From Linderina pennispora (lineage: Eukaryota; Kickxellomycota; Kickxellomycetes; Kickxellales; Kickxellaceae), in NCBI RefSeq assembly GCF_002104995.1, contig NW_024468257.1:248001-312000 (forward strand): a stretch of 64,000 nucleotides of DNA. The letters run 5' to 3'. Under the pieces are notes generated by a model. That model did no database searches, was not told the DNA's origin, and saw nothing but the letters and a program-made list of their open reading frames with translations. A program made the translations under genes and the position numbers. Numbering within the stretch: the stretch's first letter is position 1; each line of letters begins with the position of its first letter. Shown piece by piece: positions 4,513 through 47,501 of this stretch.

Positions 4513-4831
4513 TGTAGAATGTAGGCTGAATTGAAGAGACCCGGTTCAGAAGACAAGGTCTGAATTCGAAAAGCGAGGGGTTTGGCGCAGGCAGGCCTTC
4601 ACTTATCTGGCTGATCCTGGCGCCGATAATCGGCTAATCCGCGCGTCGAAGGCTCCAAATGCTTCACACAAGTACCAAACAGCGATCGCACCGCCCGTTG
4701 GCCGCAGGAAGGGAGCCTTCACCTCCATTTCCGCCACGGTAAACGGCATTTTGGCTCAGCCTGTAAAATTTTCTTCTGCTCCGTTTCTGCCACACAGATT
4801 TTTCTCTACCTTTTGCGCGACATCCCTCCCT

Positions 4832-12907: not shown

Positions 12908-12911
12908 GTAT

Positions 12912-13158
12912 TGTGGTGATCACACCACAGTCACTCAAAGCCAATGCTTATGCGACTCAGCCGATCACAGATGATGAGACCGATTCATCACCCCAGGCTA
13001 GGCCACATAGTTAGGGCTATAAAATAGACACCGGATCACTCCAGGAGTGACTCGGGAGGAATCATCTCTTCTTGTTTAATAATATTAACTGTCCCTATCA
13101 ATTGATTAGTGCCTGGGCGAGTAGACGAAGCTCATGACCTTTAAATAGGGTCGCGACA
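12912..13158 (+). repeat. 5' LTR of the gag element
   Basis: 247 bp with TG...CA ends (TGTGG...GCGACA). It contains a TATA box and is followed after one base by a tRNA-primer-like TGGTAGCATCACC. The boundary on the right is inferred from the CA end and that site. Only the first 200 bp are repeated, inverted, at the far end of the element. Confidence 0.75.
13018..13024 (+). promoter_or_regulatory. TATA box inside the 5' LTR
   Basis: TATAAAA within the LTR, about 210 bp upstream of the gag ATG and well placed for a U3 promoter. Its mirror copy in the right arm (about 14385-14391) would direct transcription leftward into gag antisense. Confidence 0.6.
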
Positions 13159-13159
13159 T

Positions 13160-13172
13160 TGGTAGCATCACC
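13160..13172 (+). other. Putative primer-binding site
   Basis: TGGTAGCATCACC lies one base after the LTR end. The leading TGG is complementary to a tRNA CCA end, and TGGTA resembles initiator-tRNA-Met priming sites of LTR elements. The assignment to a particular tRNA is not secure. Confidence 0.5.
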
Positions 13173-13231
13173 TAAGTCCCTTATTCTGTCCTCAGAACTA
13201 TTGTCTACGTCCACTCCATTTTTTCAGCACC

Positions 13232-14188
13232 ATGAACAACAACGCCAATGCCAGTACTAACGCTAACCCGACCTCTGAGCAGCAGGAGGCCCAGTTAAAC
13301 CAACTCCTGCAGCTGCTGAACGAGCATCCTGTCCTGGGCGATCGTCTCGTGGGCTATATCCAGCAGAGGATGGACAGCCAGAACCAACCAGGAGCAGTGA
13401 CAGTCCATGCCAACGAAGCACCGAATATTGAACCATACGACATGGTGACGTCGAATGTTACCTTTAAGAATTGGGGAGATAAATGGTCAGCGTACATGGA
13501 CACAATGCAATCTGGCACGTTGCCTCAAAAGGCGTTGTACTTACGAAATGCAGTAGTCGGACAGGCCAAGACGATGATCGACGTGCACTTAAGCCGACAC
13601 CCGGGGCGGCAAGCTTTGATCATGGCCACACCGGCGTTCTTCATTGCAGAATTCGACTCAATGCTTTCGCGTCCTGACCACCTGTATGTCTTCCGACACC
13701 GCTTGATTGAGCTGAACCAGCGGGGTAAAACTCTACAGCAATATATCGCGGCGGAAGCAGAAATCGTAGGCGGCAGCGATATCGCAGACGTTGAGCGAAT
13801 TTCGTATTTCCTGCATGGGCTGAATCCTAGTCTCTATAAAGCGCTGGTTTGGAAAGCGCCTACTGAGTTTGTAGAAGCACTACGGCTAGTCAACAATGCC
13901 GATGTGTTAGAACAGACAGCAGCAGAGGCTACGGGGTTGCAGCCAGCAGCAACTGGCGTATCCAGTCTGCCAGATCAACCAGAACCAATGGAAGTTTCTG
14001 CGGTATATACGAAGGGTAGCTCGATCATTTGGATCAAGGTCGGTTCCGTCTCGGTACCCTTAGCCAAGGACCACCCCACATGTAAGCAATGGCTACGTGC
14101 ACAACGCCGTTGCTTTACTTGCGGTGATCCTGGTCATGTCTCGCAGAACTGCACCAAGAAGCCGGGAAAAGGTGCAGGGCAGCAGTGA
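13232..14188 (+). CDS. Retrotransposon Gag protein (Ty3/gypsy-like) with CCHC knuckle
   Basis: A 318-residue capsid-nucleocapsid protein. An Asn/Gln-rich head is followed by a Ty3-type capsid domain (about residues 75-225) with FKNWGDKWSAYM, FRHRLIELNQRGKTLQQYI and YFLHGLNPSLYKALV. A single zinc knuckle, CFTCGDPGHVSQNC (residues 294-307), comes next, and then a basic tail. The frame is intact, as expected of a young copy. Just before the stop a second open frame (about 14185-14373) may be the first codons of pol, but it runs straight into the inverted LTR arm. The product could still form particles; no enzyme is encoded here. Confidence 0.88.
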   Translation: MNNNANASTNANPTSEQQEAQLNQLLQLLNEHPVLGDRLVGYIQQRMDSQNQPGAVTVHANEAPNIEPYDMVTSNVTFKNWGDKWSAYMDTMQSGTLPQKALYLRNAVVGQAKTMIDVHLSRHPGRQALIMATPAFFIAEFDSMLSRPDHLYVFRHRLIELNQRGKTLQQYIAAEAEIVGGSDIADVERISYFLHGLNPSLYKALVWKAPTEFVEALRLVNNADVLEQTAAEATGLQPAATGVSSLPDQPEPMEVSAVYTKGSSIIWIKVGSVSVPLAKDHPTCKQWLRAQRRCFTCGDPGHVSQNCTKKPGKGAGQQ

Positions 14189-14297
14189 CGGATTCGCTGT
14201 TGCCCACACCAGAACTGCCAGCCCTGAACTTTGACTCTCGCGAGCCAGAGGGGGAAGGCAGGTCACCCGCAGATGATCTCGACGAACATGTTGATGA

Positions 14298-14497
14298 CAC
14301 TAATCAATTGATAGGGACAGTTAATATTATTAAACAAGAAGAGATGATTCCTCCCGGGTCACTCCTGGAGTGATCCGGTGTCTATTTTATAGCCCTAACT
14401 ATGTGGCCTAGCCTGGGGTGATGAATCGGTCTCATCATCTGTGATCGGCTGAGTCGCATAAGCATTGGCTTTGAGTGACTGTGGTGTGATCACCACA
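14298..14497 (-). repeat. Right inverted arm: partial LTR in opposite orientation
   Basis: Reverse complement of 12912-13111 with a single mismatch (CTCGGG versus CCCGGG). It lacks the last 47 bp of the LTR, including the U5 end. It ends CCACA at 14497, next to the GTAT duplication. Confidence 0.9.
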
Positions 14498-14599
14498 GTA
14501 TACAGACCATTTCGCTAAACAAACAGTGGCATGGCTTCAACAAAATGAGAGACAGCTGTGAACTGCCGGTGGATTCGCAGACCACAGCAAAAGCAAAAG

Positions 14600-14671
14600 T
14601 TCCGCAACGGGGAATCGAACCCCGGCCACGACGGTGAGAGCGTCGGATCCTAGCCACTGGACCATTGCGGA
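14600..14671 (-). tRNA. tRNA-Glu (anticodon CTC)
   Basis: The gene reads from 14671 to 14600. The acceptor stem TCCGCAA pairs perfectly with TTGCGGA. The D-arm contains GGTCCAGTGGCTAGGA (A box) and the T-arm contains GGTTCGATTCC (B box). The anticodon loop CTCTCAC gives CTC, decoding GAG. There is no intron. The base after the stem is A, then a TTTT run (about 14594-14597) serves as the Pol III terminator. It lies 36 bp from an LTR-like repeat on its 5' side and 99 bp from the gag element's TSD on its 3' side. Confidence 0.95.
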
Positions 14672-14707
14672 TTTGAGACGCTTTCCCAAGAGAATCGTCT
14701 TTCAAGC

Positions 14708-15293
14708 TGTCATACTCGCAGTACTTAAAAGGAGTGAAGGAGAGGCTTGATCAGTGGGTCGATTACCAGCACTGACTGGATCGGTCATGAAGGACATTGT
14801 AGTCGCTTGTCTCGCTTTGTCTTACTTGTAACGCTTTGTCTTGCTTGTAACGGTCCTGACTTAATAACTTGGAAAACTAAATAGAAATATAACTCAGTGA
14901 ACTGTTCCTTAATGAGATCATATACTAAAAAGTTGGCAATAAAACTAAAAGTTGCTCACTGCTCACAGCCATATTTATACTCATTTGGTGGGATGGACTT
15001 CGGCAAATGGAGTATAATACATGCTATTATCAGCTGCCGGGCGCCCACAGGATAGTGCTCCTACATCCAGATAGAGCCAATCTATGCATATCGGAGGTCA
15101 TCTGTTGGTAGATGTCGGGCGTTAGACATATATCGAATCCATTCGCGGGAGTCAACTTGACCCGCGATAGTCAGGGATGGTTAGCACAGATAACGGAACA
15201 GCGGCAAAAGAACGGAGGTAAAAGAAACAATTTGGTCCAGTTGCTTTGTGTAACCATGTCATGATCTGACCATGGACTGATTACGACATGACA
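14708..15293 (+). repeat. LTR-like repeat, unit 1 (586 bp)
   Basis: Bounded by TGTCAT at 14708 and ATGACA at 15293, inverted ends typical of LTRs. It starts just upstream of the tRNA-Glu gene. It shares long diverged blocks with the next unit, including TTAAAAGGAGTGAAGGAGAGG, TTGATCAGTGGGTCGATT, GAGATCATAT, GGGATGGACTT and CATCTGTTGGTAGA. No coding capacity. Probably a solo LTR of a tRNA-targeting element. Confidence 0.65.
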
Positions 15294-16008
15294 GCTATAC
15301 TCGTAGTGTTTAAAAGGAGTGAAGGAGAGGTTTGATCAGTGGGTCGATTGCCAGCACTGTCTTGGTCGGTTGCGAAAGACATAGTAGTCACTGGTCCCAC
15401 TTGAAACGATATCCGTGAATAAAGGGTTACAAGAATAATAATAAAAACGGTCGCGGGAATATAAATATCCTGGTGAAATGGTAAACAACCAGGCTCTTTT
15501 CTCTCATTCGTGGAAACCTGCAAGGTAGTCTACGATTTCGATTGTAGCGGCCTTGGCTAATATCTTTGGATACCTCAATAGAATAAATCTCAGTAAAACT
15601 ATTCTTTATGAGATCATATTCTGAAGAGTAGAAATTAAAACCAAATGTTGCTCGCTGCTCATGGCTTTATTTATACTCGTTCAGTGGGATGGACTTTGGC
15701 AAATGGAGTATGCTACTTGCTGCTATCAACCACTGGGAGACCACGGGATAGTTCTCCCACATTCATATAGACCTGATGTATACACATTGGAGGCCATCTG
15801 TTGGTAGACGTCGCGAGCCAGACACATCATAATAAATCTATTTATGGGTATCAGCTCGACCTGCAATAGTCAGGGGCATCAGCACTGATAGCGGAACAGT
15901 AGCATTTGACAAAGGAGAGAAGAGAAGTAATGGAAAAAGGGAATACAAATAGAACCCTTGATGTGTAACCATGTCATAGTCCAACTATGGACCAGTTATG
16001 GTATGACA
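15294..16008 (+). repeat. LTR-like repeat, unit 2 (715 bp), abutting unit 1
   Basis: Diverged direct copy of the preceding unit, beginning at CTATACTCG and ending ATGACA at 16008. It is longer than unit 1, mainly from about 15400 to 15560, where it carries sequence absent from unit 1. Both units end with a similar short palindromic segment (CATGTCAT...ATGACA). The direct abutment suggests insertion at the edge of an older LTR, or a collapsed tandem element. Confidence 0.6.
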
Positions 16009-44625: not shown

Positions 44626-46682
44626 ATGACGCTCGATAACGGATACTTTAGCACTACTATTCCTCTGTCGACTGCCAAGGCCACCACCCCAGGCGTCCAG
44701 TCTGATGTGCCCGTGGCGACCCTGCCGACTCCCCTGAAGCGCGTCGTCTCTGGCGCCGCCCTCAAGGAGCTGCTGGCGGGCTCGGCCGGCCAGCCCAAGA
44801 CCCCCAGCCACGGCGATGCCGAGTTCCGTGACTACACGCACTACGAGCTGCCCCGCGATCTGGTCACCATCAAGAACACGGTCATCATGCACCTGTCGGC
44901 CACCTTTCTGCGCACCCCCTCCAGCATCGACTCGGCCCACGCCTACCTGGCCAGCGCCTTTGCCGTCCGCGACCGTCTGCTGCAGCGCTGGAACCTGACC
45001 AACGAGGTAAGTGGCTATACACAATGTATTTGCGCACACATCTGCACGGAGAATGATGACGTTGCGGCGGTGTGTGCATCACCAGCCCTCACCCTGGCAA
45101 CAGCCAGAGAAAATCAGCTACATCAAAAGCGGCAATTGGCCGAAAGAGAATGGTGCCGCTAATGCCATCGCTGGTCACTAAGCAACGTGTCCCACCTGTC
45201 ACATCTGTGTAGTACCACGACCGCATCAATGCCAAGCGCATCTACTACATGTCGCTCGAGTTCCTGATCGGCCGTACCTTTGACAACGCCCTTCTGGCGC
45301 TCAACCTGCGCGAGGAGTACTCCAAGGTGCTGGGCAAGGTCGGCTTCAAGCTCGAGGATATCATTGACGAGGAGCGCGATGCTGCTCTCGGCAACGGCGG
45401 CCTCGGCCGTCTGGCAGCCTGCTACGTCGACTCGATGGCGTGCAAGGACTACCCCGGCTGGGGCTACGGGCTGCGCTACAAGTACGGCATGTTCCAGCAG
45501 CAGATCATCAACGGCTACCAGGTCGAGGCGCCCGACTGCTGGCTCGACACCCCCAACCCCTGGGAGTTCCCGCGTCCCGACGTCACGTACCCGGTCAAGT
45601 TCTACGGCCATCTGGTGCACGACCCGACCAACCCGCGGCGCTTCAAGTGGGAGAGCGACGTTGTGTACGACGCCATGGCCTTTGATGTGCCTGTCCCGGG
45701 CTACGGCACCAAGAACGTCGGCAACATCCGCCTGTGGAGCTGCAAGACCAACCACCTGTTTGACCTCAACAAGTTCAACTCGGGCGACTATGCCGGTGCC
45801 ACCGGCGGCCAGGTTGCCGCCCAGGTTCTGACCGACGTGCTGTATCCCAACGACAACACCAACGAGGGCAAGGAGCTGCGTCTGCGCCAGGAGTACCTGT
45901 TCTGCTCGGCCACCCTGCAGGACATTATTGCGCGCTTCAAGAAGACCGGCAAGCCCTGGGTCGAGATGCCCGACCTTGTCGCCATCCAGCTCAACGACAC
46001 CCACCCGACCCTGGGCGTGCCCGAGCTGATGCGCATCCTCATCGACGAGGAGGGCCTGGAGTGGGACGCCGCCTGGGACATCACCAAGCGCGTGTTTGCG
46101 TTCACCAACCACACCATCCTGCCCGAGGCCATGGAGAAGTGGCCGGTCCCCATGCTCGACAAGATCCTGCCCCGCCACATGGGCATCATCTACGACATCA
46201 ACCTGTTCTTCCTGCAGGAGGTCGAGAAGCTGTATCCCAACGACCGCGACCTGCTGCGCCGCATCTCCGTCATCGAGGAGTCGAACCCGCAGCAGGTGCG
46301 CATGGCGTACCTGGCATGCGTCGGCTCGCACAAGGTCAACGGTGTCGCTGCCATCCACTCGGACATCATCAAGCAGACCATCTTCTCTGACTTTGTCAAG
46401 GTGCAGGGCGAGGACAAGTTCATCAACAAGACCAACGGCGTGTCGCCGCGTCGCTGGATGAACGAGTGCAACCCGGCCATGAGCGCGCTGATCACCGAGG
46501 TCGTCGGCGACAGCTCGTGGATCAACGAGCTGACCAAGATCAAGGCCATTGAGGCCAAGGTCGACGATGCCGACTTCCGCGAGCGCTGGTGGGCCGCCAA
46601 GCAGCAGGCCAAGGCCCACCTGGCCGAGTACATTCTCAGCACTACCGGCATCAAGGTCAACCCGAACGCCCTGTTCGATATC

Positions 46683-46715
<33 letters not shown>

Positions 46716-47501
46716 TTCATGAACATCCTCAGCGTCATCCACCGCTACGGCCAGCTCAAGAAGATGTCTGCCGAGGAGCGCGCCAAGCAGCTCCACCGCG
46801 TCGTCATCTTCGCCGGTAAGGCTGCGTCGGGCTACTGGGTTGCCAAGCAGGTCATCAAGCTGATCAACTCGGTGGCCGAGGTCATCAACAACGACGAGGA
46901 GATTGGCGATGTCCTCAAGGTCGTCTTCATCCCCGACTACAGCGTCACCGCCGCCGAGTCCATCATCCCGGCCAGCGACATCTCGCAGCACATCTCGACT
47001 GCTGGCACCGAGGCGTCGGGTACCTCGAACATGAAGTTCTGCCTCAACGGCGGCATCATCCTTGGCACTGTCGACGGCGCCAACATCGAGATTGGCGAGG
47101 AGGTTGGCGAGGAGAACATCTTCTTCTTTGGCTGCCTTGCCCACGAGGTCGAGGACTTCCGCCACTACCTGCGCTTCCACCAGCCCAAGCCGGACGAGGC
47201 GCTGCAGGCTGCGTTCGACCTCATCCAGGCCGGCACTTTCGGCGAGGCCCACATCTTCCAGCCGCTCATCGACTCGATCCTGCGCGGCGGTGACGTGTAC
47301 CTGCTGTCTGTCGACTTCCCCTCGTACATCCAGGCCCACCAGGCCGTCGAGGAGGCCTACCGCGACCACGACGAGTGGATCACCAAGTCCATCCTCAACG
47401 TTGCCCGCATGTCCAAGTTCTCGTCTGACCGCTCCATCCAGGAGTACGCCGAGGAGGTCTGGAACATCGAGCCCCTGCCTGTCGATAACTCCAAGGTCTA
47501 A
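44626..47501 (+). CDS. GPH1: Glycogen phosphorylase, one intron
   Basis: Releases glucose-1-phosphate from glycogen with pyridoxal phosphate as cofactor. Exon 1 is 44626-45006 (127 codons), the intron 45007-45212 (gtaagt to tgtgtag), and exon 2 45213-47501; 889 residues, near fungal homologues. Visible motifs are YYMSLEFLIGRTFDNALL, DAALGNGGLGRLAACYVDSM, YGLRYKYGMFQQ, IQLNDTHPTL, FTNHTILPEAMEKWP, TNGVSPRRW, QVKRIHEYKRQFMN and EASGTSNMKFCLNGG, with the PLP-binding lysine in SNMKF. The N-terminus resembles the fungal form with a Thr/Ser-rich tail that could be phosphorylated (KRVVSGAAL), but no strict animal-type Ser14 motif. Codon use is strongly biased to C-ending codons, consistent with high expression. 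Confidence 0.96.

Follow-up and report, generated by a model that had tools for sequence, protein, structure and literature searches.

The window, a 64,000-nucleotide stretch of the Linderina pennispora genome, contains an inserted unit of 1,586 bp (12912-14497) with the tetranucleotide GTAT directly on either side. Elsewhere in the window, a glycogen phosphorylase (45249-47498) has its best listed relative in Martensiomyces pterosporus (91% identity), ahead of those from Coemansia, Kickxella and Dipsacomyces; Martensiomyces is a member of the Kickxellales, in keeping with a host of this order. From left to right, the unit consists of a full 247-bp LTR, a PBS-like sequence, a leader, gag, the start of pol and an inverted U3 (Table 1). 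The left LTR shares 97% identity with the 247-bp LTRs of full-length copies in the same assembly and is followed downstream by TTGGTAGC. Based on the PBS sequences of Ty3 and Ty1, we presume that the PBS-like TGGTAGC pairs with an initiator-Met tRNA primer; a search with an initiator-tRNA pattern typed by hand gave no match.

The two arms of the unit lie in opposite orientation and are identical at 199 of 200 positions, as a sequence-only reading of this DNA had claimed. That reading took both arms for inverted LTR copies. The inverted orientation holds, but the left arm is part of a full LTR and the right arm corresponds to LTR nt 1-200 only. In detail, the right arm runs from LTR nt 200 to nt 1 and terminates precisely at the U3 end (...CCACA), and both outer termini of the unit are U3, reading TGTGG inward from each side. 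The unit has no canonical pair of direct LTRs with U3 and U5 as outer ends, and a 14-nt PPT-like tract of the parent elements (described below) is absent from both of its strands as an exact match. The unit is derived from this family but is not a canonical Ty3/gypsy member, as its right end is an inverted U3.

Table 1. Features of the inserted unit and its immediate surroundings (window positions).
Feature	Position	Strand	Basis
Target-site duplication GTAT, left copy	12908..12911	.	Sequence; one GTAT at the paralogous empty site L058
Complete 5' LTR (U3-R-U5), 247 bp	12912..13158	+	Comparison with full-length copies
Left inverted arm (LTR nt 1-200)	12912..13111	+	Self-comparison and family alignment
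TATA-like CTATAAAATAG in U3	13017..13027	+	Inverted copy in right arm; putative function
PBS-like TGGTAGC, 1 nt 3' of LTR	13160..13166	+	Sequence
gag ORF, 318 aa, intact	13232..14188	+	ORF reading and genome gag search
Gag CCHC zinc knuckle (PF00098)	14108..14158	+	Pfam
Start of pol frame, -1 relative to gag, ended by the switch	14185..14302	+	Comparison with parent
Switch point CACTA, 5-bp microhomology between parent pol start and antisense U3 nt 200-196	14298..14302	.	
Right arm, LTR nt 200-1 inverted, U3 terminus outermost	14298..14497	-	
Target-site duplication GTAT, right copy	14498..14501	.	Sequence; empty-site comparison
tRNA-Glu (CTC), ~100 bp from the insertion	14599..14671	-	Part of the repeated target segment, outside the element

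The parent family

A DNA search of the assembly (26.2 Mb, 222 contigs) returned at least 55 matches, from 26 scored candidates. Five genomic copies match nt 1-1401 of the unit at 96.65-98.0% identity. The full-length or near-full-length members of the family have an LTR, a PBS-like sequence and a gag like those of the unit. Three of them (L009, L010 and L011) are 5,034 bp long, and the direct 247-bp LTRs of each are identical; a fourth (L014) spans 5,483 bp and has non-identical LTRs. On contig C201, two LTRs lie ~10 kb apart (L012/L013), and we take this copy for an interrupted element. The sequence-only reading had proposed a search for an autonomous parent, and the 5,034-bp elements with normal direct LTRs represent the parental form.

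Pfam searches of L010, conducted on separate pieces, identified protease, reverse transcriptase, RNase H, H2C2 and rve integrase domains in this order, which we take to be the Ty3/gypsy arrangement. A purine-rich tract, AAAGAGGAGGATGA, lies immediately 5' of the 3' LTR of the parent. Whereas the parents have two direct 247-bp LTRs, pol and this PPT-like tract, the unit has one LTR and an inverted U3, and lacks both the PPT-like tract and a sense 3' LTR. In the genome, a search with gag yielded at least nine matches: the unit itself, the five parents, one of which is split into two pieces, and two remote relatives. The Gag protein had no match at E 0.001 among 1,176 protein-database candidates.

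The three 5,034-bp elements do not differ from each other before nt 695 or after nt 4716. Between these positions, they differ pairwise at 28, 42 and 52 sites, with transitions making up 25, 39 and 50 of these, and the differences are unevenly spread. Another family member, L015:1063-1404, is a 3'-truncated copy (nt 1-343) with an LTR that carries most of the subfamily variants of the unit. All the full-length copies found belong to the other subfamily.

Target site and relationship of the arms

The unit and family copies alike have 4-bp target duplications. Exactly 4-bp duplications were detected for 12 of the 13 family insertions tested, including the unit, and the single exception without a duplication is L018. 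These 12 are not 12 independent events, because L014, L017 and L019 have the same flanks. Six members (L015, L022, L023, L026, L027 and L028) were omitted from the comparison, because truncation, degradation or uncertainty affects one or both of their LTR ends. The composite on C201 was kept outside the score, and its flanks have CACC in common.

Both flanks of the unit match a paralogous segment on contig C124. When joined, the flanks form one 982-bp alignment with locus L058, at 91.5% identity, which runs through the junction and includes no element. The junction at L058 reads GTAGTATACAGACC, with a single GTAT. Eleven loci were compared, and alignments to nine of them span the junction. The element is absent from all nine, and the exact GTAT is kept at L058 only. 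The two loci without a spanning alignment are L066, which was included because of an LTR fragment and has no flank match, and L067, which matches in pieces. Given the contiguous alignment of the joined flanks to L058 with one GTAT and no element, we exclude chance or a local rearrangement as the source of the observed arrangement. The empty site at L058, a paralogue and not an allele, and the family-length duplication together indicate that the unit inserted into a known target, in agreement with the GTAT duplication described by the sequence-only reading.

The insertion hit a repeated segment that includes a tRNA-Glu gene (window 14502-15500 and L058-L065), and a 77-bp stretch of it (14725-14801) contributes 20 of the 41 listed genome matches of the right flank. 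ARAGORN found no tRNA at 20 other family loci, which gives no sign of a preference for tRNA genes. At L018:1001-1590 (C109), the flank that abuts U3 in L014, L017 and L019 abuts U5. This flank forms one end of a high-copy repeat, for which there are 210 candidate places (40 of them scored), and the other flank of L018 has one further genomic match. Family members may thus be inserting repeatedly at the edge of this repeat.

We compared the arms with the other 21 LTR sequences aligned. The right arm differs from the left at one position, whereas from each of the other LTRs it differs at four or more, the nearest being L015 and L018 (four differences each). The variant set of the arm pair is intermediate between the two subfamilies, and its haplotype occurs in none of the 21. 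As the right arm is nearest to the left arm (one versus at least four differences), we infer that both arms derive from one RNA lineage. The sole difference between the arms is at position 141, which is T in the left arm and C in the right. Among the other 21 LTRs, this position is C in 17, a gap in three (L021, L027 and L028) and T in L025, a rearranged LTR that at this point is already outside the U3 homology. The T of the left arm looks as if it arose later by mutation, or by an error in copying.

The bases beyond the right U3 terminus are the native right flank and not the reverse complement of the left flank. Had the right arm been copied in place from the left LTR, continued copying should have brought left-flank sequence to the right end. 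Such sequence is missing, which speaks against in-place copying of the right arm.

The junction and the origin of two U3 ends

The unit corresponds to nt 1-1390 of the parent, followed by antisense U3. Parent-like sequence runs to ...GATGACACTA and is continued by antisense U3, CACTAATCAATTG..., and the two overlap in the 5 bp CACTA. An overlap of at least 5 bp is expected at ~0.5% of random junctions, if equal base frequencies are assumed. The normal structure of the parent, the retention of its first 1,390 nt and a microhomology switch to antisense U3 argue that the cDNA most likely already carried the inverted structure, and that integrase would have joined two U3 ends. The sequence-only reading had arrived at the same pre-integration cDNA from the duplication around the whole unit; the empty paralogue, the 4-bp duplications of 12 of 13 insertions and the direct-LTR parents now support it. 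Its suggestion of template-switched reverse transcription is consistent with the 5-bp microhomology at the junction.

We assign a probability of roughly 60% to the reading that the unit is the integrated product of one aberrant reverse transcription of the Ty3/gypsy type, which proceeded via a stalled strong-stop primer. Plus-strand strong-stop DNA primed at the PPT would have stalled near LTR nt 200, with a 3' end of ...GATTAGTG. Once displaced, this DNA would have annealed by TAGTG to CACTA in gag-pol genomic RNA or plus-strand DNA and primed a minus strand there, replacing the normal minus-strand 5' end and copying gag, the leader and the PBS. A second, normal plus-strand strong-stop DNA would then have transferred to the 3' end of this minus strand, and both strands would have been completed. 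The predicted outcome is a linear DNA with two PPT-defined U3 ends and no U5 end, and after processing of both U3 termini, integrase would have inserted this DNA at a target cut with a 4-bp stagger. In Ty3 of budding yeast, plus-strand synthesis begins from a PPT that lies immediately 5' of U3. This PPT apparently serves as a primer repeatedly, and Ty3 particles accumulate large amounts of dead-end plus-strand strong-stop DNA (PMC5371799, excerpt).

The strong-stop primer-template duplex ranks third of 97 candidate sites with at least three matched 3' bases (-10.4 kcal/mol), and two other sites pair better. For the reverse arrangement, in which the gag end of the plus strand pairs with U3, the rank is sixth of 44 sites (-8.7 kcal/mol). 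This calculation is a rough one, with RNA parameters for both strands and L009 as template in place of the unit's own full-length parent, which is not among the copies found, and we read the ranking as a weak signal and a mild preference for strong-stop priming.

Three routes lead to the same final sequence, namely the strong-stop route, snap-back copying and microhomology joining of fragments. In snap-back copying or template switching, which is possible but clearly less probable, the elongating plus strand would stop at parent nt 1390, its 3' ...CACTA would pair with TAGTG (LTR nt 196-200) of its own 5' end or of another strong-stop DNA, and U3 would be copied to the 5' terminus, with second-strand synthesis and integration to follow. 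This accounts equally for the microhomology and for the exact run-off at the U3 terminus, and the predicted pairing is the one ranked sixth of 44. However, the primer pairing is weaker than that of the strong-stop route, and an intramolecular snap-back would give a hairpin with one terminus, from which two ends would arise only by extra second-strand steps. A microhomology of 5 bp is also typical of end joining, and host microhomology-mediated joining of a truncated 5' half and a U3 fragment, head-to-head and before integration, is compatible with the derivation of both arms from one lineage. We regard it as unlikely, as it would involve two independently broken cDNAs and a joining step that left ends still usable by integrase, more steps than a switch by reverse transcriptase.

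In a rearrangement after integration, a normal element or oppositely oriented nested insertions would have reached the present form through later deletion, conversion or repair; the existence of a rearranged LTR in the family (L025) is a point in its favour. In such a history, a U5 end must have become an exact U3 terminus with the second GTAT kept to the base, and in-place copying of the left LTR should have run into the left flank; moreover, the haplotype common to the arms is absent from the 21 other LTRs. We therefore consider it very improbable. More improbable still is an assembly or library artefact. A fold-back chimera is not expected to end at a U3 terminus, nor to return to native flanking sequence beyond a 4-bp duplication in agreement with the paralogous empty site, and the locus is internal to a 908,848-bp contig.

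Other element types were rejected. Autointegration joins at an LTR terminus, whereas the internal junction of the unit lies at LTR nt 200/196 and has microhomology. A TIR DNA transposon or MITE does not fit ends that are LTR U3 and an interior that is the gag of an LTR element. A DIRS or other tyrosine-recombinase element was rejected given the rve integrase of the parent and the target duplication of the unit.

One further locus has an inverted U3. The solo LTR at L025:848-1154 (G000:C112:258747-259053), with the duplication TGAG, includes an internal U3 in inverted orientation. Its start coincides exactly with the U3 terminus, and its junction with the outer U3 lies near a CACTCC(A/T)GGAGTG-like palindrome. 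This inner U3 resembles a different subfamily, that of L028, both by eye and by a 79% match. We did not count L025 as a second inverted-U3 product. Because the inner U3 resembles another subfamily and the junction is near the 13-bp U3 palindrome, a nested insertion followed by a deletion is at least as likely as a strand switch.

Fate of the unit and comparison with known systems

Among the matches listed (at least 55 in the DNA search and at least nine in the gag search), there is no second copy with the structure of the unit. The sequence-only reading had considered it as the founding copy of a gag-only family, and this we rejected. A member of such a family would keep both PBS and PPT; the unit keeps a PBS-like sequence and lacks the exact PPT tract of its parent. 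It most likely arose as a by-product of a single error in reverse transcription and does not found a new family. As the unit has neither a PPT nor a sense 3' LTR, retrotransposition by the normal path should fail, and the unit is probably a dead end.

The proposal of a recent event agrees with the arms, which differ at one of 200 positions, but the intact gag adds no independent support. Compared with four parents, gag has a pS of 0.032-0.041 and a pN of 0.011-0.015. Because the arms differ by only 0.5%, this divergence probably mostly predates integration, and thus the intact ORF does not point to selection after insertion. If active, the promoters in the two U3 copies would face inward, and the family might conceivably be controlled by antisense RNA or by Gag alone. 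A combined scenario, in which integrase used a two-U3 cDNA in vivo with U5 dispensable and the convergent-U3 product makes sense and antisense gag RNA or Gag that restrains the parents, seems doubtful to us.

Several known systems share parts of this architecture. TR-GAG, TRIM and LARD elements are shortened LTR elements without pol that are mobilised in trans; these elements have retained PBS, PPT and a direct pair of LTRs and occur as families, whereas the unit is single-copy with inverted ends. Aberrant retroviral cDNAs described in the 1980s are by-products with inverted LTR material, like the unit, but were mainly unintegrated or circular, and the unit is integrated. The Ty3 PBS resembles the PBS-like TGGTAGC, and Ty3 makes target duplications of 5 bp rather than 4 bp. 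Ty3 and the parent of the unit have in common the protease-reverse transcriptase-RNase H-integrase order, and the PPT that primes the Ty3 plus strand just 5' of U3 has its counterpart in the PPT-like tract before the 3' LTR of the parent. Normal Ty3 products end in U3 on one side and in U5 on the other, in contrast to the unit with its two U3 ends (PMC5371799, excerpt).

DIRS-1 is similar to the unit in having gag between inverted LTRs; it carries a tyrosine recombinase gene, and its integrating intermediates are presumed to be circular (PMC5633606, excerpt). In contrast, the parent of the unit encodes an rve integrase, and the unit has a target duplication. Tyrosine-recombinase elements of the DIRS type are not known to make a target duplication.

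Integration is normally described as the joining of one U3 and one U5 end. The unit is a natural example of two U3 ends joined in an otherwise clean insertion. As U3 was joined on both sides, concerted integration by the integrase of this family seems able to proceed without U5, and one end of each kind would not be a strict requirement for integration in cells. The unit also preserves what is probably a side product of reverse transcription, including its switch point. Among the open-licence titles and opening parts of abstracts listed, an integrated element with two U3 ends is undescribed, which is weak evidence of absence, and passages of two HIV papers concern template choice and asymmetric LTRs rather than inverted ends (PMC5651808, PMC9278108). 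Inverted U3 (or U5) LTR ends combined with a target duplication provide a search image for further cases, which tools that look for direct LTRs are expected to miss.

A related element at L036:1230-1381 (C23) has a reverse transcriptase with 54% identity, a 137-bp LTR and the same PBS-like TTGGTAGCATCACC. Among the 35 places listed for this 137-bp-LTR family, no U3-U3 pair was found. On contig C57, one closely spaced pair of its LTRs in opposite orientation has the U5 ends outward, and the identities of the two are unequal (96 and 86%).
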